57,640 nt of DNA from the NCBI GenBank assembly GCA_039934295.1, contig JBDTMN010000008.1, positions 1 to 57,640 on the forward strand, written 5' to 3'. The stretch comes from Candidatus Taylorbacteria bacterium (GTDB lineage Bacteria; Patescibacteriota; Minisyncoccia; Phycocordibacterales; HO2-43-120). Numbering within the stretch: the stretch's first letter is position 1; each line of letters opens with the position of its first letter. This document shows, piece after piece, positions 4,601 through 20,022 of the stretch. A program made the position numbers and the translations under genes. A model generated the notes under the pieces. That model saw only the letters and a list, made by a program, of their open reading frames with translations. It was not told the origin of the DNA and made no database searches.

Positions 4601-6416
4601 AGGGTCAAATGAAAATACATTGGCTTTTTCGGAAATAATTACTACGCCGATTAACAGGATTAAGGAGACAATTGATACTTATGCCTACACTATCAAAGAA
4701 GTGTTGAGTGAGTACCGTGTCGAGTTAATTGCTTTTGAGATCGCATTAGGTGGGGGTACAGCACCAACAGATGAGCTTCAGAAAATGATGACGGCTCTAG
4801 AAAAAGCCAAGAGCGAAGGGAATGCAAAAAGAGTAGCAGGTATTGAAAAAGGAATAGAAAATCTAAAAGCTAAATCATCACAAGAGCGAAAAGGTGTACT
4901 TTGGGAGAAACTTTTAGCCGATGTAGCTTCATTTCAGCGGCTCAAGGATGACATATTTAAGGCGCAGGAGATATTTGCCAGCACAGAAAAGGAACTTGAA
5001 AACGCGATTACAGAGAAAATGCCTTCGGGTAAAAAGATTCAGGAGATTAAGCGCAAAATGGCAGTCGCAAAGGAAGACCTACGCGCCAAGTTTACTGTCA
5101 TGGAGCGTCGCATTGAGGAATTTAGAGCGAGTCTCCAAAATATGATTGCTCCGGCTTTGAGTAGTGAACGCGCTTCCGCTCTCGTTCAAGACATAAATAC
5201 TCGACTTGCCGAGCAGTTCAACCATTTCGATGCCGACAGAAGCATGCTTAAAAATCTTTTTGGTGAACAGTCTGATAAAAAAAAGGAAGAGATGGAAAGT
5301 CGTCCCATGAGCATATTCGTCTGGACGAGAGACCCCGATGTTGATTTATATCAAGGCAATTACTCACCGTGCTGTATATGCATAGACAGCACATATCATG
5401 GAGCCGAATCTCCTATCGCTGACTATAATACCGACCTCGGTATCCAAATTGTAAATGTGTGGGACGAAACCAAAAATGAGCCGGTAACGGCGGCTTGGTG
5501 TTGGCTTGGCGAAGACGAAAATGGGGAGCCAGCTTTGGTGGTGGATAATATTGAAGCCAATACATTATTTAGTGCAAACTTCTCTGAGCAGTTTACAAAT
5601 GAGCTTTTTAAATATATCAAGGAGTATGCTAAAGCAGTCGGCGTCAAGAAAGTCGTGCTCGGAAAAGCTAATAATGATTTGCCTACTGCTGGAGAGTTAT
5701 CAAAACTTCCTGAAAACGTTCAGAAATACACCAAGATAGGTGGTGCAAATAGGTCTGACGGATACTTTTTGGAAGCAGAGAGCAGTTCAGTCAAAGTGAT
5801 TTGGGAAAAAGGAGTTAAGTCTTCAACTAAAAAAGCGGAATCGAAAACAAAAAAGTCTGAAGCTGAACGTGTAGTGTTTAGTGAAGTCAACGCGTATGCT
5901 CTCACCGAGCCTGATTTTCGCTCAATGAGAGAACTTGAACGCCGAGTATATGTAAATGATAGCGAACTCATACAAGGCCTTGAGCTTGTAAGAGATATTA
6001 ATGAGGGCAATGGTCTCGAGTATTCTGTAGCGATTTGGGGTGTTCCTGAAGGTAGCACTAAACAAGAAATGATTGCCTACGCAGTTGCAGTAGAAGATGA
6101 AACTGATGAAGGAGACAAATCAGTCTATCTTGAGGATATTGCCGTGGCTCCGGAAGCTCAACGGCAAGGAGTCGGACGGAAAATAATTCAAGAATTAGTG
6201 CAGAGGTTAAAAGCAAAGGCGACCACTCTCGGTGAGCCCGTACTTTTTGACATGCACCTGCGACCAAATTCTCTCGCTATGCTCGATACCCAGCGAGAAA
6301 CATTTGCGGGAATTGGGGTAGTTCCCATTGAAGAAGTGCTTGTTCCTGACTACTATGACGAGGGTGAGGATGCTGTTTATCGGGTGTACGAGGTCATGCC
6401 ATCGAGTCAAAATTGA
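1632..6416 (+). CDS. Giant helical-repeat protein with C-terminal GNAT acetyltransferase domain
   Basis: This 1594-residue protein has an acidic N-terminus of about 100 residues, followed to about residue 850 by roughly 19 degenerate helical repeats. Each repeat follows the pattern AAxEGMxxxLxxGxxxxAxxIKxxFSL. A Lys/Glu-rich, probably coiled-coil section (about 1050-1200) comes next, then a Cys-containing globular region (about 1220-1340). A GNAT domain ends the protein, with the acetyl-CoA motif VAPEAQRQGVGRKI near residue 1500. There is no signal peptide or membrane segment. The repeats suggest a solenoid scaffold for protein or RNA binding, and the GNAT domain suggests acetylation of a bound partner; both are inference. 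It resembles very large hypothetical proteins of Parcubacteria. It ends in TGA, which overlaps the -35 box of the next promoter. Confidence 0.75.
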   Translation: MSQEGLEPNKLKISLKPEDMVGKFHVEEENKKNTIREDAKKRLIGGLSRGYLDYVEKSLEGVDNVRAEDEDIDNYQYDRNDDDWEWEKRRRLSNIPDEVKDSPEVIQAATEGMMGCLSNGDIEQATEIKNIFSIPTEIIYHSTELHAIQEALARRLSHEDNDGVIELINNFFPARSAEGGLSPEFEQTFKKILGNLISDGYVDRAIEIKHRLYLSQSIITSSEIQDSIKKQLIYFFQRDDIRGAEHLKEQFSITANVLASSEVQEIVKHFVAYTLSKEYYNDIGYAREICGKFSLSSENVMQAATEGLIARLSKGDIHRASEIRQEFSISPETITSPTVQQAARQGMLDLLLDDKEYRSIEHAIAIKDQFAILPESLASPETQRVCQKVVVRYLSSEYPQIDEAIKFRNQFGLSDSATRQAAEEGMIAQIKRNSMHDAEKIKNKFFSSGEEALSPEVQEAVKQAMIRTLLAGENAFITETLRLKMSFALPTEVLSSSEVQQAAERAMLKCLTNGEVLNTVRIKNSFSLPTEVTSSHAVQLAARAGMAKCLAKGNAYNTSDVDEIRNMFSLSVENTQLAAKEGMMAQLANGNIAGAESIQEKFSISQEIIVSDEVRKAATEGVSRCLLNGSVDDVLKIIDKFSLPIEYIKYNIIGVMTLALASGTERMDVAIEIKSKFPSLVAEITTSYKDTQEAANEGLFKYISYGHIDSAYFNRISSVMNKFSLRADYLFSPKMQKIAIKKITDWISARNGRDVVMQIKDQFLLPDEAVHSAVIDGMVNLLSSGQIDYAEKVKDQYSLSAENLLKAAKQAFLKCLADDKNERAEQIKEKFKVSVSSEDILEYFPEIRTLLSELRTISPDFATQAEKTPDLLLSLLEFRKNPKKIIDIATQNPFLLEAVASNPRFGSRLLIKYPQFDRISKENITTQCAAKKKIMTEHPDIDPQSVEFRMLMQDTLLAFGKNKEVVADIDSKGLSSERWLNYDETASFNLGSNENTLAFSEIITTPINRIKETIDTYAYTIKEVLSEYRVELIAFEIALGGGTAPTDELQKMMTALEKAKSEGNAKRVAGIEKGIENLKAKSSQERKGVLWEKLLADVASFQRLKDDIFKAQEIFASTEKELENAITEKMPSGKKIQEIKRKMAVAKEDLRAKFTVMERRIEEFRASLQNMIAPALSSERASALVQDINTRLAEQFNHFDADRSMLKNLFGEQSDKKKEEMESRPMSIFVWTRDPDVDLYQGNYSPCCICIDSTYHGAESPIADYNTDLGIQIVNVWDETKNEPVTAAWCWLGEDENGEPALVVDNIEANTLFSANFSEQFTNELFKYIKEYAKAVGVKKVVLGKANNDLPTAGELSKLPENVQKYTKIGGANRSDGYFLEAESSSVKVIWEKGVKSSTKKAESKTKKSEAERVVFSEVNAYALTEPDFRSMRELERRVYVNDSELIQGLELVRDINEGNGLEYSVAIWGVPEGSTKQEMIAYAVAVEDETDEGDKSVYLEDIAVAPEAQRQGVGRKIIQELVQRLKAKATTLGEPVLFDMHLRPNSLAMLDTQRETFAGIGVVPIEEVLVPDYYDEGEDAVYRVYEVMPSSQN

Positions 6417-6442
6417 CAAGACGGGTATTCTCGTGTTATACT
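6413..6442 (+). promoter_or_regulatory. Promoter of the isolated island unit
   Basis: TTGACA (6413-6418) and TATACT (6437-6442) are 18 bp apart. The -35 box overlaps the stop codon of the preceding gene. It drives a leader of about 90 nt with a TTCGTAA/TTACGAA hairpin, in contrast to the leaderless genes around it. Confidence 0.65.
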
Positions 6443-6539
6443 CAAAAACGGAAGAAGTCCCTACATTTTTCCCAATAGGAGTTCGTAAGTGAGAGGTTCT
6501 TACGAATTTTCCAAACTCTAACTTCAAAAAGGACAAAAG

Positions 6540-6893
6540 ATGATTTCAGTGAAATGCGTCGGAGGACCCTACAATGGAGTTGTGTGGGCTGTGCCGCGGG
6601 AGATGAATCCATCAACACTCTTTCACGACTTGATCGAAAAAGAGTCGGGCTGGGAGATTGACCTCAGTCAGGCATCGCGGGAGGAGGCGATTGCTTGGGG
6701 CGGGGCAGACTTGATTGCACGCGCAGTGCGAGCAGTCAGAAAAGGTTTGACGGCTAACTTTATGGGCACGGAGTACTCCACAATGGAGGAGCTTCAATCA
6801 TTTGAAGATGCCATGGTCAACTCGGGATACTGCGTCCGCGTAGCACAGGACGACGAGCGGGGAATGGTGGTGGACATCGTTCAGCCAGAGTAG
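6540..6893 (+). CDS. Small hypothetical protein, island paralogue A
   Basis: This 117-residue soluble protein of unknown function is a clear paralogue of the protein at 14203-14556. They share an N-terminal KCxGGxYNG motif, a central WGGADLxARAxRAV motif, an EExQxFEDA(M/I)V(N/D)SGY block and a C-terminal QPE. The start is supported by AAGGA about 8 nt upstream. The gene has its own promoter and is followed by an RNA structure (motif X, 6925-6995). Its downstream sequence is repeated almost exactly after the second paralogue. It looks like one isolated unit of the island, separated from the main array by a regulator gene on the other strand. I recognise no domain. Confidence 0.75.
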   Translation: MISVKCVGGPYNGVVWAVPREMNPSTLFHDLIEKESGWEIDLSQASREEAIAWGGADLIARAVRAVRKGLTANFMGTEYSTMEELQSFEDAMVNSGYCVRVAQDDERGMVVDIVQPE

Positions 6894-7130
6894 TTCTTTT
6901 CTGCCGCAGCGGATAATTTCAACCGGACGAGTTTTTGCGGAAACTCGTCCACTTTATTGAGTTTACAATATTTGAAAATTGTGGATTCATTGAGTCAGAT
7001 TTACAAAATTATTTACAGTCCCCGAGGGGCTATTGGTCAGGCGATGGAACCCAAGTAGTGGAGTAAAATTCACTACGAGGCATGTTGGGCAAGCAAGAAA
7101 GCAGTGTGAGCGTTTTGACCCTAATTCTTT
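6882..7130 (+). repeat. 250-bp direct repeat, left copy
   Basis: The last codons of the 6540 gene plus about 240 bp downstream are repeated at 14545-14794 with few differences. The non-coding part is more conserved than most of the two flanking paralogous genes. It includes motif X copy 1, a CCCC/GGGG mini-hairpin and the hairpin GTAGTG...CACTAC, which is GTAGTG...TACTAC in the other copy and so remains paired through a G-U. The repeat ends 6 bp before the stop of the convergent regulator gene. Confidence 0.85.
6925..6995 (+). ncRNA. Motif X copy 1 (unrecognised structured RNA)
   Basis: Stem A is GGACGAGTTT/AAACTCGTCC, followed by the linker ACTTTATT, stem B GAGTT...GATTC with inner ACAAT/ATTGT, and then ATTGAGT. 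The GAGT can pair back to ACTT of the linker. The same architecture with different stem sequences recurs six more times in the island. Confidence 0.7.
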
Positions 7131-7135
7131 TTGAT

Positions 7136-7900
7136 TTAACTATGACCCCAGATATAATCGAACATAATCCGAAACGTCTCGGTGATGTATTTGCTTTCAA
7201 TGGCGATAGTAATGATGCTTTCTTTGAAGTTTGTGATTGCAACCTTGTCTCCATAGATAATAATCTGAGCCGGGATATTTAGTTTTTCGGTCGGAATCAT
7301 CTTGCGAGTGATTAAATGTTTCTCGTCTTCTTCTACTGGAAGCACTGCCACGTGCCCTTCGTGGCGGGGAGTGATAGCTCGCGTCTTAATATTCTGCTCC
7401 GCCTGCTTCTTAACTTGCTCCTTGATGAGATGGATTACTTCCTGTTTTCCTTGATGAATTGGAGAACTTATCACCAAAATATTTTGATTCACATCGAGAA
7501 TATCGTTATATATCTCTTGAAGTCCCGCGACTCCTTCCAAAAACTGGACGTTCGGTTTTCCCTGTAAAAGATTAAAAGATGAAGAAAGGGAAGTGAGGGT
7601 CGTCTGAAGAAGTGCTTTTGATTGTTCCACATCTAATTTTTTTTCCTCGAGTAGTTCCACAAGTCGCTTTGGATGTTCGGGGGAAAACAGTGCGATCCTT
7701 CCTGATGTTTTTTTCTTTTCAACTAATCGAAGAACGATTAACTGTTCGAGTACTTTATAGGTAAGGGCGCGACCGAGCCCTGTTTTTTTTGAAAGATGCT
7801 TGGCTGGAGAGATGCCGGTCTCAAGCAAGCATGAATACACTAGCGCTTGCTCGGAGGATAATCCGGAATTCTCTATTATATTTTTGTCTTTTTCATTCAT
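7136..7900 (-). CDS. TrmB-family transcriptional regulator
   Basis: This 254-residue regulator has an N-terminal winged helix (about residues 10-75; the segment around SPAKHLSKKTGLGRALTYKVL is the helix-turn-helix). A coiled-coil linker follows, then a C-terminal TrmB/PLD-like sensor domain with the motif ITNFKESIITIAIESK. It is a paralogue of the regulator at 18912-19697. The start at 7900 follows a TATAAT box at 7913-7918. It lies divergently just upstream of the promoter of the main RNA-rich array, so it is a natural candidate for that array's regulator, and an inverted repeat in its own promoter suggests autoregulation. The ligand is unknown. Confidence 0.85.
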   Translation of the reverse strand: MNEKDKNIIENSGLSSEQALVYSCLLETGISPAKHLSKKTGLGRALTYKVLEQLIVLRLVEKKKTSGRIALFSPEHPKRLVELLEEKKLDVEQSKALLQTTLTSLSSSFNLLQGKPNVQFLEGVAGLQEIYNDILDVNQNILVISSPIHQGKQEVIHLIKEQVKKQAEQNIKTRAITPRHEGHVAVLPVEEDEKHLITRKMIPTEKLNIPAQIIIYGDKVAITNFKESIITIAIESKYITETFRIMFDYIWGHS

Positions 7901-7907
7901 ATCATCG

Positions 7908-7944
7908 TGACAATTATATCCTATATTACAGTTAAATATTGTCA
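7908..7944 (-). promoter_or_regulatory. Regulator promoter with inverted-repeat operator candidate
   Basis: TGACAAT (7908-7914) and ATTGTCA (7938-7944) form a perfect 7-bp inverted repeat with a centre-to-centre distance of 30 bp. It spans the minus-strand -10 box TATAAT (7913-7918) of the TrmB-like gene. Confidence 0.5.
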
Positions 7945-7990
7945 ATAGTCATGAAATGGTGAATCAGTGTATCACAGACCTGTAACTAGC

Positions 7991-8018
7991 TTGACATAGT
8001 GTTTATATATGTTACACT
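7991..8018 (+). promoter_or_regulatory. Main promoter of the RNA-rich gene array
   Basis: TTGACA (7991-7996) and TACACT (8013-8018) are 16 bp apart. No other strong promoter is evident before 14930, so the genes from 8122 to 14556 may form one long transcript. Confidence 0.6.
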
Positions 8019-8121
8019 ACTGCAAGACGATAGAGATGGGATAAGCACTTGCTTGCCGCTATCGATTGACAAAAAAAGGCATTATATAGGTGGCCTAAAA
8101 CTACCAGTAGAAAAATTGATT

Positions 8122-8466
8122 ATGAAGACCTACTTTGGATTCGGTATCGCCCCTTCGATGTTCCCCCTTGAATGCGGCATTCGTAAAAGCAATCTTACGG
8201 TGGAGCAGGCGAAGGAGATCATTGGTGAGGGGGTGACCTCCTGCCTCAACCCGAGCCACAAGGCTTCGATTGAGGTGATGAAGACCCGCTTCCAGGTGGA
8301 AGTGGAGATTCCGCCCAAGGCGCCGAGTGTCTCGCTCGTAAATGGCGACCGACTGGTCGTCATGGGAGTCGCAGGGCTCCCCCGGTTGGAGAACCGGCAC
8401 GAGTACACCACCGACGAGGTGAACGCCGCGAAATTCAATTTCGCACTGTTCACGGTCTCGGAATAG
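8122..8466 (+). CDS. DUF1874 protein (STIV B116 / AcrIII-1 ring nuclease family)
   Basis: This 114-residue protein fits the DUF1874 pattern: an N-terminal strand ending in APSMFP, the helix LTVEQAKEII, the segment SCLNPSHKAS, then VEIPP..., a GDRLVVM strand, a LPRLE turn and a final ALFTV strand. The family includes archaeal-virus B116 and the viral anti-CRISPR AcrIII-1, which degrades the cyclic tetra-adenylate messenger of type III CRISPR using a histidine. His46 here occupies the matching position, with GHEAT of the family replaced by SHKAS. Ring-nuclease activity is therefore possible but unproven. It is the first gene of the array, and its stop codon lies in the loop of a hairpin (8455-8473). 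No Shine-Dalgarno sequence is evident. Confidence 0.65.
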   Translation: MKTYFGFGIAPSMFPLECGIRKSNLTVEQAKEIIGEGVTSCLNPSHKASIEVMKTRFQVEVEIPPKAPSVSLVNGDRLVVMGVAGLPRLENRHEYTTDEVNAAKFNFALFTVSE

Positions 8467-8473
8467 CCGAGAC
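8455..8473 (+). other. Hairpin across the stop codon of the DUF1874 gene
   Basis: GTCTCGG (8455-8461) pairs perfectly with CCGAGAC (8467-8473), leaving the stop codon in the loop. No T run follows, so it is not a terminator. Confidence 0.6.
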
Positions 8474-8527
8474 TGGAAGAAGTTGAAAGATCTTGTAAAA
8501 CTTTCCTCTACCCGTTGAGTGAACGGG

Positions 8528-8580
8528 TTGCTTCTCACGATGTGTATCGTGACTGATGAGTCCGAAAGGACGAAAAGCAG
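8528..8580 (+). ncRNA. Hammerhead ribozyme 1
   Basis: The full catalytic core is visible: CTGATGA (8553-8559), stem II GTCC-GAAA-GGAC (8560-8571) and GAAA (8572-8575). Stem III pairs TTGCTT (8528-8533) with the last A of GAAA plus AGCAG. Stem I is TCACGA/TCGTGA closed by a TGTGTA loop (8535-8552). The predicted cleavage site follows C8534 (a UUC triplet). The topology is type III, with stem III open to the flanks. It lies between the DUF1874 and GNAT genes. Cleavage would separate their messages and leave a 5'-OH on the downstream one. Confidence 0.9.
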
Positions 8581-8602
8581 AATGATCTTTGATACGAGTT
8601 AC

Positions 8603-8647
8603 TCATAGCAATTTGTTACTAATATGTTTGGTGACAGGTTGCTATGA
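8603..8647 (+). promoter_or_regulatory. Hairpin that buries the start codon of the 8644 gene
   Basis: TCATAGCAA (8603-8611) pairs perfectly with TTGCTATGA (8639-8647), which contains the ATG at 8644. An inner helix TGTTAC/GTGACA extends it. A homologous element precedes the gene at 9516. Confidence 0.7.
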
Positions 8648-9072
8648 ATACTCAAATTATGAAAGCTCACGAAGCAGTGAGTTTGTTGTTCTCAACACAC
8701 ACCTATGTAAAGCATGATGCCTGGTTTCCGACTCTTTTTGGAGGAGATAGGTTGTCATGTTGCGATGAGGCGGTTGTGGTAATGGTGGAAGGTTGCATTG
8801 CGGCACTCGCCACAATCGCCCCCGAAGGAGAGATGACTTCCGGTCATCCGACGATTGTTGGTTTGTATACGGTGAGAGCATTTCGCCAGCAAGGTTATGG
8901 CAAGATGGTTCTCGAAGCGACAGTTCGCCGCTGTATGGAACGTGGATTTACCAAAGTCCACATTGATGTTCTCACGCCAAAAGCGATGATGACAGTCAAT
9001 ACACTGCAACTTGAACTTAGGAATGTTCTGGAAGTGGTGGATCAGTCGGCGTGCGGCTGTTTTTTGGAATAA
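8644..9072 (+). CDS. GNAT-family N-acetyltransferase
   Basis: This 142-residue protein is close to the minimal size of a GNAT domain. The acetyl-CoA-binding motif A is visible as VGLYTVRAFRQQGYGKMVLE (about residues 77-96), followed by a helix and the strand KVHIDVL. The C-terminus is short and Cys-containing. The ATG at 8644 lies inside a perfect 9-bp stem; a second in-frame ATG lies at 8659. The preceding spacer carries hammerhead ribozyme 1, and only 27 nt separate this gene from the next, so the two are probably co-translated. The acetyl acceptor cannot be inferred. Confidence 0.75.
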   Translation: MNTQIMKAHEAVSLLFSTHTYVKHDAWFPTLFGGDRLSCCDEAVVVMVEGCIAALATIAPEGEMTSGHPTIVGLYTVRAFRQQGYGKMVLEATVRRCMERGFTKVHIDVLTPKAMMTVNTLQLELRNVLEVVDQSACGCFLE

Positions 9073-9099
9073 CATTAACACTACAATTGAGAGGAAAAA

Positions 9100-9348
9100 A
9101 TGATCTGGTATGACTGGGAATGGGTGCAGTGGGCGAGGGCAGAGTGGCATTATTTGGAAAGTAAACCCGAAGGGAAATTGGCAAGAAGGGTCCGCTGGAG
9201 ACTTTTGGTAAGAGCGGCTCGTGCTTATTTGCGGGTTGGGAAGGCTCAAGAGGAAGATTCAACTATCAGGGATGCTTTAAAGTTGGCGCATCTGTGGGTA
9301 GAAGAAAATTTCCAAGGAGTTGGGATATGGATTGGGACTGCACAATAA
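9100..9348 (+). CDS. Small hypothetical protein, Trp/Arg-rich
   Basis: This 82-residue protein is rich in Trp and Arg, with several Trp residues in the first 16. It is predicted helical, has no signal peptide, and matches no family I recognise. The start is supported by GAGAGGA 5 nt before the ATG. It follows the GNAT gene by 27 nt and precedes motif X copy 2. The low sequence complexity is not extreme, and the clear ribosome binding site makes it likely to be translated. Confidence 0.55.
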   Translation: MIWYDWEWVQWARAEWHYLESKPEGKLARRVRWRLLVRAARAYLRVGKAQEEDSTIRDALKLAHLWVEENFQGVGIWIGTAQ

Positions 9349-9401
9349 CTGCGACTTCGGCACGCGGGGTACGAAGACTACCTGGCAACAGAATCGTCTC
9401 A

Positions 9402-9460
9402 GGAGAATTCATGATTCTCCACTTTATTGAGTCTACGACGTTGTCGCGGATTCAAAGAGT
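9402..9460 (+). ncRNA. Motif X copy 2
   Basis: Stem A is GGAGAAT/ATTCTCC around a TCATG loop. The linker ACTTTATT follows, then stem B GAGTC...GATTC with inner CGAC/GTCG, then AAAGAGT, whose AGAGT pairs with ACTTT of the linker. Stem A differs completely in sequence from copy 1 but is still fully paired. Confidence 0.75.
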
Positions 9461-9470
9461 TCTTTAAAAT

Positions 9471-9524
9471 GTTTTTCATAACACTTTGCTACTTACCGAT
9501 AGGTGTCAGAGTGCTATGAAAAAC
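9471..9524 (+). promoter_or_regulatory. Hairpin that buries the start codon of the 9516 gene
   Basis: GTTTTTCATAACACT (9471-9485) pairs with AGTGCTATGAAAAAC (9510-9524) with a single mismatch. The ATG at 9516 lies in the middle of the stem. The element resembles the one at 8603-8647: both contain a CATAxCA start, an inner TACT and GGTGxCAG, and end in TGCTATGAA. Confidence 0.7.
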
Positions 9525-9998
9525 AAAAAAAATATTGCCGTCGAGCCTTTCGGGCTCGTGCAGGCATCGGGACTTACAACTCAAGCTGTCCTCGAGACGC
9601 TTGAGATCGCGGACATGTGGAATTGCCACATTCCCTCACTTCTTGCTACTCCTACGGGAGAAGAGCGAGGGTACATCGGACTGGCGGAAGTAATTTCGTC
9701 GGTAGCAATAGTCTCGCTGGAGCAGGAGCTTCAGGAACGGGGATGGGAGTTTGCTTCTCCAAGTCTGTTTCTCTGCGGGAAGGACGAAGCTGGGAAATGG
9801 ATTCTGCCACAGCTAGGGGATACGTTTACTGTGCTCAATGCACCTAAACACTTTCCTGGTCGGCCGGATTTCTACCCATGGATGCACACTGCACAGGGGG
9901 TGCGGGCCTTCGGGCTTACGCCTTTGTCCGACATCTTCACAGATGATGGAGATGTACGGCAGGGAGTCCGTTTCCCCGTCGTCAAGACGGGAAAGTAA
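9516..9998 (+). CDS. Hypothetical island protein, 160 aa
   Basis: I recognise no family for this 160-residue soluble protein. The C-terminal half has conserved-looking HFPGRPDFYPW and GLTPLSDIF segments. The start at 9516 is chosen because its ATG occupies the same position in a start-codon hairpin as in the 8644 gene. Several stem-loops lie inside the coding sequence: GAGCC/GGGCTC near 9543-9558, ATGTGG/CCACAT near 9614-9631, and TTTCCCCGTC/GACGGGAAA at the 3' end just before the stop. Motif X copies 2 and 3 flank the gene. Confidence 0.6.
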   Translation: MKNKKNIAVEPFGLVQASGLTTQAVLETLEIADMWNCHIPSLLATPTGEERGYIGLAEVISSVAIVSLEQELQERGWEFASPSLFLCGKDEAGKWILPQLGDTFTVLNAPKHFPGRPDFYPWMHTAQGVRAFGLTPLSDIFTDDGDVRQGVRFPVVKTGK

Positions 9999-10032
9999 AA
10001 TGCAGAACGCTCCGCGGGGCGCAATTTCAACC

Positions 10033-10098
10033 GGACGAGTTTTTGCGGAAACTCGTCCACTTTATTGAGTCTACGACGTTGTCGCGGATTCACAGAGT
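10033..10098 (+). ncRNA. Motif X copy 3
   Basis: Stem A is identical to copy 1 (GGACGAGTTT/AAACTCGTCC), while stem B matches copy 2 (GAGTC...GATTC with CGAC/GTCG). It then reads ACAGAGT, so AGAGT pairs with ACTTT. It is a hybrid of copies 1 and 2, which suggests recombination between spacers. Confidence 0.75.
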
Positions 10099-10110
10099 TT
10101 TTTTGGAGAC

Positions 10111-10167
10111 TGGTTTCTCACAACGATGTCGTGACAAATTTAGTCGTTACATTGTTGTGAGAAACCA
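10111..10167 (+). promoter_or_regulatory. Long start-codon hairpin of the 10157 gene
   Basis: GGTTTCTCACAACGATGT (10112-10129) pairs with 10149-10166 over 18 bp with one G-U, plus a flanking T-A. The GTG start at 10157 lies inside the 3' arm. Confidence 0.75.
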
Positions 10168-10357
10168 CAAAAAAAAGTCCGGAAACGGCCGCGTTCACTT
10201 CCACGCGAAGAATAAAGAAGTATTCATCGACTTCTCCTTTAAGAAAGAGGAGGTTACAGTAACCGGCACATTGCCGGTGAAGGTGGTAACGAGTGGGCTC
10301 GTCTGTCTTCTCAAAAAGCTGGACAAGTTCATTGACGACGACAATGGAGGTCGTTAA
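10157..10357 (+). CDS. Small basic hypothetical protein
   Basis: This predicted 66-residue protein starts at a GTG in the 3' arm of an 18-bp hairpin, the same placement as the start codons at 8644 and 9516. It begins RNHKKKSGNGRVHFHAKN and continues with alternating strands (KEVFIDFSFKKEEVTVTGTLP) and a short helix. A longer frame to 10043 would run through motif X copy 3, which is clearly structural RNA, so I prefer the short form. The basic N-terminus could bind nucleic acid. No family is recognised. Confidence 0.45.
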   Translation: MRNHKKKSGNGRVHFHAKNKEVFIDFSFKKEEVTVTGTLPVKVVTSGLVCLLKKLDKFIDDDNGGR

Positions 10358-10433
10358 ACTCCCACAATTCCGAGGGGAAGTTCCTCGGCGCTTGGTGAGC
10401 GGAAACAACTCGAGATGATTCATTTTATCTCGC

Positions 10434-10484
10434 CGTTTGCGAAGTGTGTACTTTGCCTGATGAGCTCAAAAGAGCGAAAACAAG
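10434..10484 (+). ncRNA. Hammerhead ribozyme 2
   Basis: CTGATGA (10457-10463), stem II GCTC-AAAA-GAGC (10464-10475) and GAAA (10476-10479) are intact. Stem I is GCGAAG/CTTTGC with the same TGTGTA loop as ribozyme 1. Stem III is short (GTT with AAC), and cleavage is predicted after T10438. Stem II differs from the other two copies by compensatory changes. It lies between the 10157 and 10729 genes. Confidence 0.85.
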
Positions 10485-10728
10485 AGGTCTTTGACAATTG
10501 AATAGCGAAGTTTGGAAGACCCTAGTACCGGAAAATAAGAATTTTCGTTACGGGGCATAGCGCGAGGCAAGAAATTTGCTTTGCAATGTTATTCCTCTTC
10601 GCCTCACTCATTGATAGCGTAATAAACTTAAAGATTGGTGGGGTAAGAGGGGTTGCATCTCATCTGGTCAGATGATCAGAGTGCGATTCCGAAAACAAAA
10701 AAGCACCAAAGAGTGCTGAAAGAAAATT

Positions 10729-10959
10729 ATGAAAAAAAGTTTTTGGTTGTTGTGGGTCACGGTTTCGGCCGTGACACTCCGAGGAGTTTACCTCGGGGTG
10801 TCAAAACTCCTCTCGCTTCAAAGCGAGGGATGGGTTGACCTCCGGTCGGAGATGAGTTGGGTCGGTCTGGTGACCGGCCTACAGGTTGCGATATTCGTTG
10901 GCCTGATGGTTAGCGGATATCACCTCTCGGTGCGGGAGTCCTCACGGACAGCTCGCTAA
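10729..10959 (+). CDS. Small two-TM membrane protein
   Basis: This 76-residue protein has two hydrophobic segments, one at residues 4-26 and one around residues 44-66 (WVGLVTGLQVAIFVGLMVSG), so it is probably a small inner-membrane protein. The function is unknown. Its short coding sequence is crowded with stem-loops: GTCACGG/CCGTGAC, CCGAGG/CCTCGG, CTCGC/GCGAG and GGTC/GACC follow one another. Hammerhead ribozyme 2 lies upstream and motif X copy 4 downstream. A small AGCAC/GTGCT hairpin sits just before the start. Confidence 0.55.
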   Translation: MKKSFWLLWVTVSAVTLRGVYLGVSKLLSLQSEGWVDLRSEMSWVGLVTGLQVAIFVGLMVSGYHLSVRESSRTAR

Positions 10960-11150
10960 GCCAAAGAGGGAAATAACACCAGACGCGAGTTTGGTTGCGA
11001 CAAAATTCCTCCTTCGCTCTAAAGCTACGGAGGGACAAGCCGGTCGCGTAAATAAAGGTAAAAATTTTGTCCCCGTTTTTCAAAATGGAGAGCCGTGAGG
11101 AAGCAGAACCTCCGTCGTGATGACTGTCGATAATAGTCATAAGGTTAGTC

Positions 11151-11225
11151 GGGAGAAGTTGATTGGTTACGGCTTCTCCACTTTATTGAGTCCATTAAGT
11201 GAAAGATCTTGTGGACTCATAGAGT
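11151..11225 (+). ncRNA. Motif X copy 4
   Basis: Stem A is GGAGAAG/CTTCTCC, the linker ACTTTATT, and stem B GAGTCCA/TGGACTC (11188-11194 with 11212-11218, perfect), followed by ATAGAGT pairing to ACTTT. The upstream 45 nt including stem A is nearly the same as the sequence before hammerhead ribozyme 3. Confidence 0.8.
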
Positions 11226-11288
11226 TATATCCGCGTTCTACAGGCGGAACAAGCTGTGGAAAATGGCGCAATAAAGGAGCGCCGGAAA

Positions 11289-11759
11289 ATGAACAGAATT
11301 ATAAAATTCCTCAGCAGTCTGCTGGGGAGAGAAACAAAGGCAATGGTAACAATCGCCACGGTCTCAGTCACCGAGATGGTGGCTGGAAAAATCAGGAAGG
11401 CGGTCGAGGAAATTCTCGACCCCGAGAGGAGGGAGGGTGGACCCTCCAGTTTCGAAATCGACCTCGGAGAGGTCGTCGTACATGCAAGTTACTGCATGTA
11501 CGGACCCACCATAACCCTTGCGGTGGGTAGAGAAAAAATCAGATTGGTCGACCATGGTTATTGGTCGGCCATGGAGCTGGAAGTCGCAGAGAAGGTTTTG
11601 CGACTCCTGACTCCTCGACAGAAGGAGGCTGTCGAGAAAAGGGTCGCCATGGAGGTGGCTCAGAGTGTTCAGTGGAGAAAGGAGGAGGCAGAACGCTTGG
11701 TCACTGAAGAAGAAGTGGCCAAGCGGAGGGAGCAGTCCCTTCGGGAGTTTGTCGGTTAG
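11289..11759 (+). CDS. Hypothetical island protein with RNA-folded coding sequence
   Basis: This 156-residue, mainly helical protein of unknown function has a predicted coiled-coil C-terminal third rich in Glu and Arg. The start is set by AAAGGAG 9 nt upstream. Its coding sequence is a chain of perfect hairpins: GGTCGAG/CTCGACC (11402-11421), GTACATGCA/TGCATGTAC (11478-11501), AGTCGCA/TGCGACT (11582-11605), CTCGACAG/CTGTCGAG (11614-11636) and CTTGGTCAC/GTGGCCAAG (11696-11723). Such spacing is more like an RNA-phage genome than a bacterial gene. It lies between motif X copies 4 and 5. Confidence 0.6.
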   Translation: MNRIIKFLSSLLGRETKAMVTIATVSVTEMVAGKIRKAVEEILDPERREGGPSSFEIDLGEVVVHASYCMYGPTITLAVGREKIRLVDHGYWSAMELEVAEKVLRLLTPRQKEAVEKRVAMEVAQSVQWRKEEAERLVTEEEVAKRREQSLREFVG

Positions 11760-11785
11760 CAGACTGTGGTGGTCTGCCGTTTTCT

Positions 11786-11848
11786 AGGGATTTCGTAAAA
11801 ATCTCTAACTTATTCAATCAATAACAGGTGTTGTTGGTTGATAGGTTA
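11786..11848 (+). ncRNA. Motif X copy 5 (divergent)
   Basis: Stem A is AGGGATTT/AAATCTCT, the linker AACTTATT, stem B CAATCAA/TTGGTTG, and then ATAGGTTA, whose AGGTTA pairs with TAACTT of the linker. All three helices differ in sequence from the other copies yet remain paired, which is covariation support for the structure. Confidence 0.65.
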
Positions 11849-11895
11849 AACGGCTTCAAGCAGGTGCCAAACAATACACCAGAAGGAGTAAAGAA

Positions 11896-12429
11896 ATGAA
11901 AAAAATGTTTAGTTTTGACGCGGAGACCAACGGCCTTTGGGGCCAGGCTTTCGCGATCGGTGCGCTCGTCTATGACGAGAACGGCATCGAGATAGCGCGG
12001 TTCGTCGGTCGTATTGCAGATTCGGAAGTGACCGACAGTTGGGTAAAGGAAAATGTCCTGCCGAAAATTCAGGACATTCCGGTGACCCACGCGACCTACG
12101 ACGAGCTTCTCGCCTCGTTCGCCGATTTCTACAAGGCGAACAAGGAAGGGGCCGACGTGATCGTTCACATGGGGTTTATCGTAGAGGTGAAAATCCTCCG
12201 CGACCTCCATGCCGCCGGACTCATCGGCGACTGGGATGCTCCGTATCCGCTCTACGACGTGAGCGGAAATCTCCAGCAGGCTGGAGAGGACGCGACCTCG
12301 GTCGACAAGTACGTCGCGAAGCACGGACTGTCGGTCGGCGAGTTCGCGGGCGGGACGCACAACCCACTCTATGACTCGGCCGTTGCGGCCGTGGTCTATC
12401 GCCACCTGCTGACGCGGGTCGCGAGTTAA
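11896..12429 (+). CDS. DEDDh-type 3'-5' exonuclease (DnaQ/RNase T-like)
   Basis: This 177-residue protein carries the exonuclease I motif FDAETNG at the N-terminus (two acidic metal ligands) and the exonuclease III motif HNPLYDSAVAA near the C-terminus (catalytic His and Asp). The middle motif is atypical: VHMGFIVEVKIL lacks the usual NxxFD aspartate, with a Glu nearby. It may degrade single-stranded DNA or RNA ends. In an array of self-cleaving RNAs, a 3' trimming nuclease would make sense, but that is inference. A good ribosome binding site (AGAAGGAG) precedes the ATG. The coding sequence includes a perfect 9-bp hairpin at 12052-12078. Confidence 0.75.
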   Translation: MKKMFSFDAETNGLWGQAFAIGALVYDENGIEIARFVGRIADSEVTDSWVKENVLPKIQDIPVTHATYDELLASFADFYKANKEGADVIVHMGFIVEVKILRDLHAAGLIGDWDAPYPLYDVSGNLQQAGEDATSVDKYVAKHGLSVGEFAGGTHNPLYDSAVAAVVYRHLLTRVAS

Positions 12430-12515
12430 TTATCATAGGAAGTGCGACTTCCTTTCCATTCATGGATAAATCGTCGCAAGGTTATGTGGAGAAGTTGTTT
12501 GGTTACGACTTCTCC

Positions 12516-12565
12516 TCTGTTCTCCGCCTAAGGCGGACTGATGAGTCCTAAAGGACGAAAACAGA
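12516..12565 (+). ncRNA. Hammerhead ribozyme 3
   Basis: CTGATGA (12538-12544), stem II GTCC-TAAA-GGAC (12545-12556) and GAAA (12557-12560) form the core. Stem I is TCCGCC/GGCGGA with a TAA loop (12523-12537). Stem III pairs TCTGTT (12516-12521) with AACAGA. Cleavage is predicted after C12522. The hairpin immediately 5' (GGAGAAG...CTTCTCC, 12488-12514) is the same one that precedes motif X copy 4. Confidence 0.9.
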
Positions 12566-12674
12566 AAAAGCATGGAAACTTCTCATCTTCGATAAGTGAA
12601 TTGTGTATATTCGAGACAAAATTTTGGTCTCATGAATTATTCGTGAGCTGATAGAGATATTTTCATTTTTTTAA

Positions 12675-12728
12675 CCGGTTTTTGGCATAAGGGGGCTGAT
12701 GCATAAGCCCTCACATGCTGAAAATCGG
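12675..12728 (+). ncRNA. Long hairpin in the spacer before the 12774 gene
   Basis: CCGGTTTTTGGCAT (12675-12688) pairs with ATGCTGAAAATCGG (12715-12728) over 14 bp using three G-U pairs. An inner helix GGGGGC/GCCCTC (12691-12696 with 12707-12712) tops it. No T run follows. The spacer 12566-12674 also contains GAGAC/GTCTC and CTCATGAAT/ATTCGTGAG hairpins. Confidence 0.55.
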
Positions 12729-12773
12729 ATGTTCTGGTGAGTAAGCAAACTCAACAACAAAAAAATAAAAAAA

Positions 12774-14012
12774 ATGAAAAAAATCGAAATGAAATGGGGC
12801 GGTGGCGACTTCAACATTGTCCTCGACCTTCGGTCGAGAAATGTGCTGGAGTATTCCAGCGAAACGGCGGCGGCGAGTATTCATGCCACTTATGGTGGCA
12901 AAAACTACTACCGCTCCTTGTCGGGAGCGAGTGGCGCGGGATGGATTCCTGCTCTACCGTGGGTGCGAATACTCCCGACCTATCGAGTGGACATGACGTC
13001 ACCCGATTTCGGGCTTCAGCCCGATGCTGACGGCAAGGTTAAACTGCCGACGGTGCTCGGCAAAGCGATCTGGGCTCCGATTGACTATCGGGGCGCAGGG
13101 ATTCCTCACGACTACCCCTTCCTTGTGGAGGAAGGGGATCGATTTGTGGCGACGGATCGCTACATGTTGGCTGGGTACCTCGCTGGAAAAGTTCCGGAGG
13201 TGGAGACCCCGGTATCAATTTCTTTCATCCGGAGCACGACTTCAGATATGGAAACGAAAAAGTGGACAGTTCTCCATGCAAATGGGGACCGTTTCACTTT
13301 CCAGAACCTTCGCCGAGCTCTGGAGGGCAGGTTCATTCATGATCTTGCCTTTGAGTGGCCGACGAGTAGTGACGGTGGGTATAACACCACCTTGAACTTT
13401 TGGAAGCGCCTCGGGCTCCACCTTGTCTCCGGTGCGATATACAAAATTTCTGGGCGTATCGCGCGTAAGCGTTACACTCGGGAGGAGCTCTCAACGGTTG
13501 AGACACTTCAGGTAGCTGTTCCGGCCAATGTGACCGTTCTCACTCCAACCTGCTATTTGCAGGAGAAGTTGGAGGGGCAGTTCGACGCTGTCGGACTTTT
13601 TGAGTTTGAGGGTGTCACTGAAGATTTCGAGATCACCCTTGAGTTGCCCGAAGCGGTTCGGGCGATGCAAGGGCAGTTCGAAGAAATCGTCGGGCGTCTC
13701 CGCGAAGGCGCGGAGAACAAAATTCGGCAAGCAGCCGAATTTCGGCGGGAGCAGGAAAAACACACCGCTGACCTGCTTGAGCGGGACCAACAGTTCAAGC
13801 GACTCTGCGAAGAACATGCTGAATTGGCTGTTACTGTTCAGGACAGCACGGATGCGGGCAATTGCATACCAGGAACGGAGGATTTCCGTCAGAGGTCATT
13901 CCCAAGTCGGGACAGCGTCACTGTCGGGGAGTTGGTCAGGTTTGTGGCAGTGCCCGGCGTCCGCCGTGTACTTGAGCACAAACTTCAGCCGTTCATTGCG
14001 GTTGCAGCGTAA
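12774..14012 (+). CDS. Hypothetical island protein, 412 aa
   Basis: This is the longest gene of the array, 412 residues with no family I recognise. The N-terminal two thirds look globular with many aromatic residues. Residues around 290-345 (EEIVGRLREGAENKIRQAAE and beyond) form a predicted coiled coil, and the C-terminus is again globular. There is no signal peptide. No Shine-Dalgarno sequence is evident; the ATG follows an A-rich tract. The first 400 nt carry a run of hairpins: CTCGAC/GTCGAG, CTGGA/TCCAG, TGCCAC/GTGGCA, CGCTCC/GGAGCG, CGGGC/GCCCG, and the 9-bp CCCCTTCCT/AGGAAGGGG at 13115-13137. Hammerhead ribozyme 3 lies upstream and motif X copy 6 downstream. Confidence 0.65.
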   Translation: MKKIEMKWGGGDFNIVLDLRSRNVLEYSSETAAASIHATYGGKNYYRSLSGASGAGWIPALPWVRILPTYRVDMTSPDFGLQPDADGKVKLPTVLGKAIWAPIDYRGAGIPHDYPFLVEEGDRFVATDRYMLAGYLAGKVPEVETPVSISFIRSTTSDMETKKWTVLHANGDRFTFQNLRRALEGRFIHDLAFEWPTSSDGGYNTTLNFWKRLGLHLVSGAIYKISGRIARKRYTREELSTVETLQVAVPANVTVLTPTCYLQEKLEGQFDAVGLFEFEGVTEDFEITLELPEAVRAMQGQFEEIVGRLREGAENKIRQAAEFRREQEKHTADLLERDQQFKRLCEEHAELAVTVQDSTDAGNCIPGTEDFRQRSFPSRDSVTVGELVRFVAVPGVRRVLEHKLQPFIAVAA

Positions 14013-14104
14013 GTTTTTTCAAGGTTTCTCATTTTAATCCTGTCGCGAGTGCGACAAAAAATGATGGGTTCCCGATATGGTGTCGGCGTGTCGAAAGACA
14101 AATT

Positions 14105-14174
14105 GGAGGATACGAAAATTCCTCCTACTTTTTGAGCCCACAGATTGAAAGATTGTTTGCGGGTTCATTGGTAG
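14105..14174 (+). ncRNA. Motif X copy 6
   Basis: Stem A is GGAGGA/TCCTCC, the linker TACTTTTT, and stem B GAGCCC/GGGTTC. The closing ATTGGTAG pairs GGTAG with CTACT of the linker. The last helix has changed on both sides relative to the other copies (CTACT/GGTAG versus ACTTT/AGAGT). Confidence 0.7.
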
Positions 14175-14178
14175 AAAC

Positions 14179-14201
14179 GATTTTCAGAAGAATAGGAAAT
14201 C
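14179..14201 (+). promoter_or_regulatory. Small hairpin before the 14203 start codon
   Basis: GATTTTC (14179-14185) pairs with GGAAATC (14195-14201), with one G-U. It covers the AGGA that could act as the ribosome binding site and ends 1 nt before the ATG. Confidence 0.45.
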
Positions 14202-14202
14202 T

Positions 14203-14556
14203 ATGATACGAATAAAATGTCTCGGCGGAGCATACAACGGGCAAGTGAGAACTCCGCCTGCAGATATGAAGCCAGTTCTCTTGCTCTTTGAGATGGTTGA
14301 TCAGGGTTTTGGCTGGCAGATTGATTTCTCTGGCGCAGATCGTGAAGAAACGATTCAATGGGGCGGGGCGGACTTGATGGCGAGGGCATATCGAGCTGTT
14401 AAAAACGGGCGTGTCGCAACTTTTCTCGGGGTGGAGTACAAAACCGTGGAAGAGCTACAGGCGTTTGAGGACGCGATCGTTGACTCGGGATATTACGTAA
14501 AGGTAAATCGAGATGACGATGAGGGGCTGGAGGTGCTAATCATCCAGCCAGAGTAG
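14203..14556 (+). CDS. Small hypothetical protein, island paralogue B
   Basis: This 117-residue protein has the same length as the protein at 6540-6893 and shares its KCxGGxYNG, WGGADLxARAxRAV, EExQxFEDA and QPE motifs, so the two are paralogues of unknown function. It is the last gene of the array. The sequence after its stop codon is nearly identical to that after paralogue A for about 240 bp, whereas the protein-coding parts have diverged. The duplicated non-coding tail may be under stronger constraint or may have been homogenised by recombination. Confidence 0.75.
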   Translation: MIRIKCLGGAYNGQVRTPPADMKPVLLLFEMVDQGFGWQIDFSGADREETIQWGGADLMARAYRAVKNGRVATFLGVEYKTVEELQAFEDAIVDSGYYVKVNRDDDEGLEVLIIQPE

Positions 14557-14794
14557 TTCTTTACCGCCGCAGCGGATAATTTCAACCGGACGAGTTTTTG
14601 CGGAAACTCGTCCACTTTATTGAGTTTACAATATTTGAAAATTGTGCATTCATTGAGTCAGATTTACAAAATTATTTATAGTCCCCGAGGGGCTATCGGT
14701 CAGACGACGGAACCCCAAGTAGTGGAGTAAAATTTACTACGAGGCATGTTGCGCAAGCAAGAAAGCAGTGTGAGCGTTATAACCCTAATTCTTT
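14545..14794 (+). repeat. 250-bp direct repeat, right copy
   Basis: This is the partner of 6882-7130. It contains motif X copy 7, the CCCCGAGGGG mini-hairpin, the GTAGTG/TACTAC hairpin and a conserved 3' block ending CCCTAATTCTTT. It marks the right end of the array. Confidence 0.85.
14588..14658 (+). ncRNA. Motif X copy 7
   Basis: It is almost the same as copy 1: stem A GGACGAGTTT/AAACTCGTCC, linker ACTTTATT, stem B GAGTT...ATTC with ACAAT/ATTGT, then ATTGAGT. One change in stem B (GGATTC to GCATTC) slightly weakens pairing. Confidence 0.65.
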
Positions 14795-14863
14795 AAAAAG
14801 ACTAGGCAAAAAAACTCTCTCCTCTAGCACCGCTTTCAGGTTTGTGCACATTCTGTCGCCATG

Positions 14864-14888
14864 GCCCGTAGCCCCGCGGGGATTTTTT
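14864..14888 (+). terminator. Probable terminator of the array
   Basis: A short G+C-rich inverted sequence (CCCG/CGGG, with CCCCGCGGGG) is followed by ATTTTTTC. It is the first terminator-like site after the array. Confidence 0.4.
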
Positions 14889-14929
14889 CGTGCATACTTT
14901 TAATGTCAAATAGTTATACACATATATGC

Positions 14930-18911: not shown

Positions 18912-19697
18912 CTACTTATTTCGTAAATCTTTATCCAGTCTTTTGGCTTCTGCCCAAGCGAGTTCGTAGATTTTTTTCATTGCGTCGGCAATCTCGGCGC
19001 TTTCGATTATGACGCCGAGCTTCTCGCGCCATGAGGCGATCATTATTTTATTGTCGTAGATGTTTATCTCTGGGGAAAAATAGTATTTGTCAGCCGGAAC
19101 GAATGCGATTTCACGTTTTTCTTCCTCATCGTGTGAGGCACGCTCCTCTCCTGTCGGAGTTTTTGGAACAATTGCTCGAATTTTGATGTTTTTTTCTGCA
19201 CGCCGTTTGTAGTACTCGGGAAAATAATTTGCGAGTCCTTTGTGCATGTCGTCTACGTTGGCATATGCGCGAATCGGCTCTTCAGAAGCCAAAGTGTCCT
19301 CGTACACGTGCTTGAGTCCCTCTTTTCCTTCATAGAATTTTATTTTTGGCCGATTTTGAGTTGCTTCCACGCGTCGAAGTTGTGGCACAAGCTCTTCGGC
19401 CTTTTTGATTTGTTCCTCGGTATCCTGAAGCCGGTCTTTCAGGAATCGCAAAATAGCATCTGGAGGCTCAACTGCGTATTCCTGCTTCGGCTCTTTCCCT
19501 GAAACATTCACTAACAATTTATTTGAAAGGGAATCGAGAATGTCGTAGCCCGTTGTTCTGTTTATTCCAGCTTTTCGAGAGATTTGTGTGACGGTGCCTT
19601 TACCGAGTTCAAGGAGTGCAACGTAAACGATGGTTTCTTTTTCGCTCAAGCCGAATGTTCGAAGGGTAATTTTTAATTGTGCGTTTTCATCCTTCAT
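18912..19697 (-). CDS. TrmB-family transcriptional regulator
   Basis: This 261-residue regulator has an N-terminal winged helix (about residues 10-80, with TVTQISRKAGINRTTGYDIL as recognition region), a coiled-coil section around residues 90-115 and a C-terminal TrmB/PLD-like domain with NIYDNKIMIASW. It is a paralogue of the regulator at 7136-7900. The start at 19697 is fixed by a near-consensus promoter 6 nt upstream. It shares an operon with the DUF4105 gene, which may be its target or sensor partner. Confidence 0.85.
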   Translation of the reverse strand: MKDENAQLKITLRTFGLSEKETIVYVALLELGKGTVTQISRKAGINRTTGYDILDSLSNKLLVNVSGKEPKQEYAVEPPDAILRFLKDRLQDTEEQIKKAEELVPQLRRVEATQNRPKIKFYEGKEGLKHVYEDTLASEEPIRAYANVDDMHKGLANYFPEYYKRRAEKNIKIRAIVPKTPTGEERASHDEEEKREIAFVPADKYYFSPEINIYDNKIMIASWREKLGVIIESAEIADAMKKIYELAWAEAKRLDKDLRNK

Positions 19698-19703
19698 AAC
19701 GAA

Positions 19704-19732
19704 AGTATATACCCAAATCGTATTTGTGTCAA
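19704..19732 (-). promoter_or_regulatory. Promoter of the TrmB/DUF4105 operon (leaderless)
   Basis: On the minus strand, TTGACA (19727-19732) and TATACT (19704-19709) are 17 bp apart, and the ATG follows after 6 nt. This is the clearest leaderless promoter of the window. Confidence 0.8.
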
Positions 19733-19813
19733 TAAGTTTCCACAAAAATATGTTGATACACAATAATATATTGAGAAATATGGCTATTTACAAAAGCAGA
19801 TTGACGATAAAGA

Positions 19814-19943: not shown

Positions 19944-20022
19944 AGGCATAAAGCCGATTCCGCAATTGCGGGATTATGAAGAGCAGAACTGCTTCTCTAC
20001 ACAAGATGGTTGGAAACAACCT

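Follow-up and report, generated by a model that had tools for sequence, protein, structure and literature searches.

Hammerhead ribozymes that punctuate bacterial gene clusters have been described before. Perreault et al. (2011; PMC3088659) found hammerheads flanking single genes in prophage clusters of Agrobacterium tumefaciens, Azorhizobium and Clostridium scindens, observed cleavage in vitro for three such arrangements and proposed that a long transcript is processed in this way. Since the principle is published for prophages, the claim made in an earlier note on the DNA analysed here, that no described system has such a layout, was too strong. This DNA is a stretch of 57,640 nucleotides (nt), hereafter the window, from contig G000:C8 (JBDTMN010000008.1) of a Candidatus Taylorbacteria genome of 1.05 Mb and 99 % completeness, and our subject is an array of small genes at 6413-14890 whose spacers carry either a hammerhead or a second structured RNA, motif X. 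The array shares with the prophage clusters the use of hammerheads to separate single genes or short blocks on one strand, but no integrase, tail or phage structural gene was found among the window proteins scanned, the ribozymes found here are all type III with a restricted loop I set and lie in Patescibacteria, and to these are added an interchangeable motif X, boxA-like sites, start-codon hairpins, structured coding sequences and a TrmB-family neighbour. We think it probable that such loci are TrmB-linked cassette arrays, each read as one polycistronic transcript and cut between the genes by RNA devices.

Three further systems invite comparison. In T7-type processing, RNase III acts on long intergenic hairpins with a small internal loop and yields single-gene mRNAs with hairpin ends; the window also has long intergenic hairpins with a small internal loop, for which cleavage is predicted, but here the hairpin alternates with ribozymes and has a conserved sequence of its own. 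In integrons, small genes are strung together as a mosaic and each has a structured element behind it, as in the array of the window, although no integrase was found among the ORFs (open reading frames) of the window and of the other arrays scanned with Pfam, the elements differ by eye from the attC layout, and selection here acts on the RNA. A hairpin followed by boxA-like TTCTTTG on a highly structured transcript that undergoes processing is also the arrangement of the boxB-boxA leaders of rRNA operons (PMC4807359, PMC10250234), but in the window these elements recur between protein genes. In the open PMC literature we found no description of hammerheads in connection with the candidate phyla radiation, Patescibacteria or Parcubacteria, nor of motif X and its exchange with the hammerhead, of boxA and hairpins at the start codon, of structured coding sequences, of a TrmB link or of a spread through Patescibacteria. 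What is new is thus motif X, the coupling to boxA, the hyper-structured cassettes, the link to TrmB and the recurrence across Patescibacteria, which make up a very large share of bacterial diversity and have been studied little. It seems that these bacteria regularly punctuate gene arrays with RNA, a trait for the most part undescribed.

The array contains eleven co-directional ORFs on the plus strand within 6540-14556, of which the first (g1) is separated from the remaining ten by a TrmB-family gene on the minus strand (7136-7945). The earlier note had listed ten genes in one direction with one isolated on the left; direction and isolation stand, and the ORF of 66 amino acids (aa) with a GTG start at 10157 was probably missed. 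Its hammerhead and motif X positions are all correct, as judged by cores and stems and by a covariance model that recovers the seven X copies with E-values of 1e-9 to 1e-14, and every spacer longer than about 30 nt does carry one or the other, the sole spacer without being 27 nt long (9073-9099). The array is also richer in G+C than its surroundings (48-55 % against about 40-45 %), and a terminator-like hairpin closes it. Of the use of ribosome-binding sites that the earlier note described, a Shine-Dalgarno-like sequence is visible by eye at only about half of the ORFs. In place of one main promoter there are two good sigma-70-like sites, at 6413 and 7991, and g1, with the former as its own promoter, is probably a separate transcription unit. 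The segment 6540-7131 (g1, its X copy and a 3' tail) is 75 % identical to the last unit (14203-14795), a duplication that has since diverged. The features are as follows.

6413-6442, plus: sigma-70-like promoter of the left unit, TTGACA-18-TATACT, 11 of 12 matches, TG before the second hexamer
6540-6893, plus: g1, 117-aa ORF of no known family, 56 % identical to g11
6925-7000, plus: hairpin 1 (6925-6950) and motif X copy X1 (6944-7000), covariance model
7013-7130, plus: structured 3' tail, first copy, repeated after X7; weak matches in L102 and L187
7136-7945, minus: TrmB-family regulator divergent from the array; most other arrays have a homologue nearby
7991-8018, plus: sigma-70-like promoter of the main array, TTGACA-16-TACACT
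8122-8466, plus: g2, weakly STIV_B116-like (DUF1874) protein
8528-8580, plus: type III hammerhead, predicted cleavage after 8534
8600-8650, plus: long hairpin with the g3 start codon in its 3' arm, z -8.0
8644-9072, plus: g3, GNAT acetyltransferase (PF00583, 7e-9)
9100-9348, plus: g4, 82 aa, homologue in the L084 array
9402-9465, plus: hairpin 1 (9402-9420) and X2 (9414-9465), ending in boxA-like GTTCTTT
9470-9525, plus: g5 start-codon hairpin, z -7.6
9516-9998, plus: g5, 160 aa
10033-10103, plus: hairpin 1 (10033-10058) and X3 (10052-10103)
10111-10167, plus: g6 start-codon (GTG) hairpin, z -8.2
10157-10357, plus: g6, 66 aa, GTG start
10435-10481, plus: type III hammerhead with a 3-bp stem III, possibly weak, predicted cleavage after 10438, boxA-like GGTCTTTGACAAT downstream of it
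10729-10959, plus: g7, 76 aa, weak LydA-holin-like match (E 0.017, below cut-off)
11152-11230, plus: hairpin 1 (11152-11179) and X4 (11173-11230)
11289-11759, plus: g8, 156 aa, strongest coding-sequence structure of the array, z -8.4
11786-11852, plus: hairpin 1 and X5, covariance model
11862-11882, plus: leader hairpin AGGTGCCAAACAATACACCAG ahead of the g9 start, one of 14 such in array loci
11896-12429, plus: g9, 177 aa, RNase H/exonuclease-like (phrog_2259, 4e-4)
12488-12515, plus: hairpin 1 ahead of a hammerhead instead of X
12516-12565, plus: type III hammerhead, predicted cleavage after 12522, Rfam E 2e-6
12774-14012, plus: g10, 412 aa, structured coding sequence
14105-14178, plus: hairpin 1 and X6, covariance model
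14203-14556, plus: g11, 117 aa, g1 paralogue
14588-14663, plus: hairpin 1 (14588-14613) and X7 (14607-14663), covariance model
14676-14794, plus: structured 3' tail, second copy
14865-14892, plus: terminator-like hairpin with a T run, closing the region

The core CTGATGAG-N10-CGAAA occurs three times in the whole genome, each time within the array. All three copies have the conserved CUGAUGA...GAAA core with UH at the cleavage site and stems I, II and III in the type III arrangement, with stem III open, and the native hammerhead is the minimum-energy fold in two of them, the copy at 10434 being the exception. A search with the Rfam hammerhead models stays below threshold for each: the type III model gives 41.2 bits (E 2e-6) at 12515 against a gathering score of 48.5, which is a curation threshold and not a structural feature, the other two copies are weaker, and the HH9 model is the best Rfam scorer for the copy at 10434. 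Other genomes, sampled evenly across the phylum, have the core too, with about 20 copies having a self-complementary stem II, and when flanks were included nearly all of these copies formed full stems I and III; reversed sequence gave none. Across the related loci fetched there are 68 distinct type III hammerheads with complete stems. Their stem I is nearly always 7 bp and stem II is usually closed by AAAA or similar. Among loop sequences UGUGUA is the most frequent (21 of 68), with UGCGUA and related ones next, and base-pair swaps across the stems use all kinds of pairs. Flank-shuffled controls gave complete stems in 10 of 2720 trials, and together with the reversed-sequence result this rejects a chance origin. 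The conservation of the loop is what a loop-loop contact would need, and by these features the hammerheads are likely to cleave themselves.

A hammerhead also stands apart from arrays at L047, L048, L049, L050, L058 and L062, in other Patescibacteria, where a single type III copy lies about 50-130 nt past a stop codon with a convergent gene next to it, and is thus a 3'-end element of an ordinary gene. In L044 (G159) two successive genes, the first for a MoxR ATPase and the second for a vWA protein, each have a hammerhead directly behind them.

For motif X, an alignment of the seven window copies, with limits chosen by hand, has a 15-bp structure with compensatory changes at eight pairs. The covariance model built from these seven, as the earlier note had proposed, finds X at E-values of 1e-3 or below in 45 of the 397 genomes of the order, often several times within a few kb, whereas beyond the order it is rare (3 of 363 genomes). 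In the best 54 copies 96.2 % of the paired cells are paired, with 146 double-change cells against 35 after shuffling, and sliding the structure along the alignment lowers pairing to 31-46 %. The alignment of the 54 was fitted to the model and is hence biased toward its structure, but the seven-copy starting alignment and the slid controls make an artefact unlikely. On this covariation we take motif X to be a genuine RNA family, strongly covarying and without a match among 4227 Rfam families. It consists of a stem of about 20 bp, in which a bulged U is conserved along with a few bases of an internal loop, and lies directly 3' of a stable hairpin, hairpin 1. The stem amounts to about two turns of near-continuous duplex, the length of an RNase III site, and the genome has an RNase III gene. 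A model-free, hand-made scan for X was too loose (31 real against 29 reversed matches), and covariance models were used instead. Viral contigs gave nine exact pattern matches, which is the chance level, and none convincing by covariance model. A further X-like match in the host genome (C17:5132) has a different context and was judged to be due to chance. We note that the RNase III and NusB genes lie about 0.6 kb apart (G000:C2:52056-53472).

Similar arrays recur in dozens of related genomes, the nearest named relatives being Candidatus Taylorbacteria metagenome-assembled genomes (Patescibacteria); the earlier note had held that a lack of homologous arrays elsewhere would refute it. At least eleven other arrays have both elements (L084, L087, L090, L091, L092, L093, L097, L137, L138, L186 and L188), and at the genome level hammerheads occur in 16 of the 45 genomes with X against 41 of the 352 without (odds ratio 4.2, p 1e-4). 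The two are also exchanged after the same gene. Relatives of g2 with 75-78 % identity are the first gene after TrmB in L087 and L186, from two other families, and the element 3' of the gene, a hammerhead in the window, is X in both (L087:4237 and L186:6034). The hairpin preceding X4 (11152) is moreover 90 % identical to that preceding the hammerhead at 12516. Arrays L180, L181, L182 and L183 have three or four hammerheads and no X; hammerhead and X can each occur alone.

A cassette usually opens with a stable hairpin; next come a hammerhead or X, boxA-like TTCTTTGAAAA, a hairpin at the start codon or in the leader, and the ORF. The adjacent 5' hairpin is present at 93 % of X copies and 60 % of hammerheads (29 % and 21 % at control places). 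Of 54 X copies, 48 have TCTTTGAAAA within the next 45 nt according to a de novo motif search (log-likelihood 53; shuffled sequence gives about 25), and the corresponding motif past hammerheads is AAAGTTCTTT; a simple boxA pattern is matched at 16 of 55 X copies and 7 of 30 hammerheads, where control windows give about 2 and 1. The boxA-like sequence is thus enriched at a fixed place relative to both elements, and it looks like the NusB/S10 site of rRNA leaders. The genome itself has a NusB gene and a TTCTTTG about 55 nt upstream of its 16S gene, in the leader. In Escherichia coli, boxA with NusB relieves Rho-dependent termination and aids rRNA maturation (PMC4807359). Long start-codon hairpins, with the codon in the 3' arm and a score of at least 12, are found in 18 of 71 cassettes and 7 % of control genes; the three in the window have z-scores of about -8, and the mismatches in such hairpins are mainly G-U. 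The leader hairpin AGGTG...ACACCAG, 7-18 nt ahead of the start, was found 14 times against once in the reversed control. A recurrent 3' hairpin past array genes, with loop UGGCAACAGAA, has 10 copies against one in the reversed control (window 9383-9393; L084 6968, 7731; L085 8074; L092 13660; L186 7543; L188 1157; L056 9660, 11455; L096 8843).

The coding sequences are structured as well. Folded in 150-nt steps, the plus strand of 8150-14000 is far more stable than its dinucleotide shuffles, and the flanks are mostly not. Against synonymous-codon shuffles, which preserve both protein and codon usage, nine of the eleven array genes have z-scores of -2.3 to -8.4, the exceptions being g1 (-0.2) and g4 (-1.7), and most flanking genes lie near 0, apart from a radical-SAM gene (-3.4) and a nusA-like gene (-2.8). 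Among other genomes, where array genes were picked by position and ORFs called by length, 36 array genes have a median of -3.6 and 19 control genes one of -0.44; in the array genes the sense strand is more structured than the antisense strand (-3.6 against -2.1). To judge from these shuffles, array coding sequences are selected for RNA structure of the sense strand, above most flanking genes, which suggests an unusual mRNA life cycle in Patescibacteria. This structure, like the start-codon hairpins, the boxA-like sites and the TrmB link, goes beyond the earlier note.

About 26 of 37 array loci have a homologue of the TrmB-family gene (7136-7945) close to the array, in most cases immediately upstream in divergent orientation, and such genes number one to six copies per genome. 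The promoters behind them are, by eye, near the sigma-70 consensus, and in G129, a genome of another class, the single TrmB gene adjoins X. A search for palindromic operators of TrmB revealed no common site. The window's genome has a second TrmB-family gene (18912-19763), divergent to a radical SAM gene (19966-21264) and with no X or hammerhead nearby; this radical SAM gene is the flanking one with a somewhat structured coding sequence (z -3.4).

That such a long transcript is cut into single mRNAs, as had been proposed, remains the best-supported reading, from the 68 hammerheads, the shared arrays and the interchange with X, and its basis is sequence, covariation, recurrence, that interchange and the structure selected in coding sequence; from these we infer cleavage, antitermination, control of the arrays by TrmB and an effect on translation. 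RNA polymerase would start at the promoter beside the divergent trmB-like gene, and boxA-like sites, presumed targets of NusB/S10, would carry it through the hyper-structured array. In each spacer a stable hairpin would be followed by the cutter, either a self-cutting hammerhead or motif X, and a cut just behind hairpin 1 would leave the upstream mRNA with a terminator-like 3' end while transcription continues; the next mRNA would begin with boxA and a leader hairpin, its start codon hidden in several cassettes. Cleavage at X is proposed because X interchanges with the hammerhead. Its means would by first choice be RNase III, acting on X as a double-stranded site, as the genome encodes this enzyme and the X stem is of suitable length; the bolder option is an undescribed self-cleaving RNA. 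The role of bacterial hammerheads has been an open question since their discovery in prophages, and the job proposed for them here, to cut the RNA between genes just past a protective hairpin, can be tested. Several points weigh against this reading. The left unit has its own promoter, and the array transcript may therefore not be single. About 11 of the 37 array loci have no TrmB gene nearby, two of them at contig ends; the hammerhead at 10434, with its 3-bp stem III and non-native minimum-energy fold, is the weakest copy; no catalytic core is apparent in X; and boxA is a short motif, perfect in only part of the copies. The loci were, besides, picked for carrying the elements, and element frequencies within a locus are not independent.

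The bolder option, that X is an undescribed ribozyme class standing in for hammerheads in the same arrays, draws on the slot that the two share, with the upstream hairpin and downstream boxA-like site in common and a swap after g2, and on the failure of X to match Rfam. The conserved unpaired part of X is tiny, however, and the known small ribozymes have, to our knowledge, more conserved core nucleotides; with an RNase III gene in the genome, we regard a self-cleaving X as quite unlikely. Very unlikely, in our estimate, is its extension, in which self-cleaving X and hammerheads define loci, with a TrmB-type regulator, that release separate, highly folded, terminator-capped and translationally masked mRNA units; if true, genes would come packaged in the form of stable RNA modules that might be stored, circularised or delivered. 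X and hairpin 1 may instead not cut RNA at all, and form a leaky terminator with a boxB/boxA-type antitermination site that controls transcription from gene to gene. Hairpin 1 plus ACUUUAUU does score as terminator-like (26 found against 8.7 expected), X has the boxA-like sequence directly on its 3' side, as is the case for boxB in rRNA leaders (for these cis elements see PMC10250234), and the relief of Rho-dependent termination in E. coli (PMC4807359) fits, but the hammerheads in the same slot are left unexplained and the U tract, besides being weak, soon pairs to become part of the X stem, which makes this possibility an unlikely one.

Another suggestion of the earlier note leads to the view of an integron-like cassette element, mobile or derived from a phage, whose hairpins serve as recombination sites of single-stranded DNA; its support is indirect. 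Some cassettes are common to genomes of different families and gene content is mosaic, hairpin 1 is near-identical in three families, repeats of 590 nt flank the locus and its G+C content is odd. Against this, scans of the array ORFs of the window revealed neither an integrase or transposase nor a phage structural gene, the X pattern in viral contigs is at the chance level, and searches for relatives in viral contigs (g1, g2 and g9), in phages (g10 and g2) and in plasmids (g1) found none; the predominance of G-U among start-codon hairpin mismatches, and of sense-strand over antisense structure, favours RNA over DNA as the functional form. We consider such an origin improbable. That the ribozymes and hairpins are decayed remnants without a present role might be argued from the imperfect hammerhead at 10434; with core, 7-bp stem I and loop kept in 68 hammerheads whose stems covary, and with the covariation of X, this is already contradicted, and we give it almost no credence.

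Among the array genes of the window, g3 encodes a GNAT acetyltransferase and g9 a protein that resembles RNase H/exonucleases; families recognised in other arrays are MoxR plus vWA, MoxR and DEAH helicases. For the proteins of the window, PADLOC and NCBIfam were uninformative. DUF1874 includes the viral ring nuclease that blocks type III CRISPR; g2 scores 17.5 bits against this family (STIV B116), not reaching the Pfam cut-off of 26, with AFV3-109 at E 0.02, and its fold model is unusable (predicted local distance difference test score, pLDDT, of 40). A relationship of g2 to DUF1874 is thus only a lead. The Rfam alpha_tmRNA model matches the UGGCAACAGAA hairpin of the window at E 1e-4, probably due to the shared UGGCAACAGAA string. 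A structured tail RNA of about 120 nt (7013-7130 and 14676-14794) stands behind the first and the last unit of the array. In three different families the first gene after TrmB is weakly DUF1874/STIV B116-like (8122-8466, L087:3809-4150 and L186:5579-5923).

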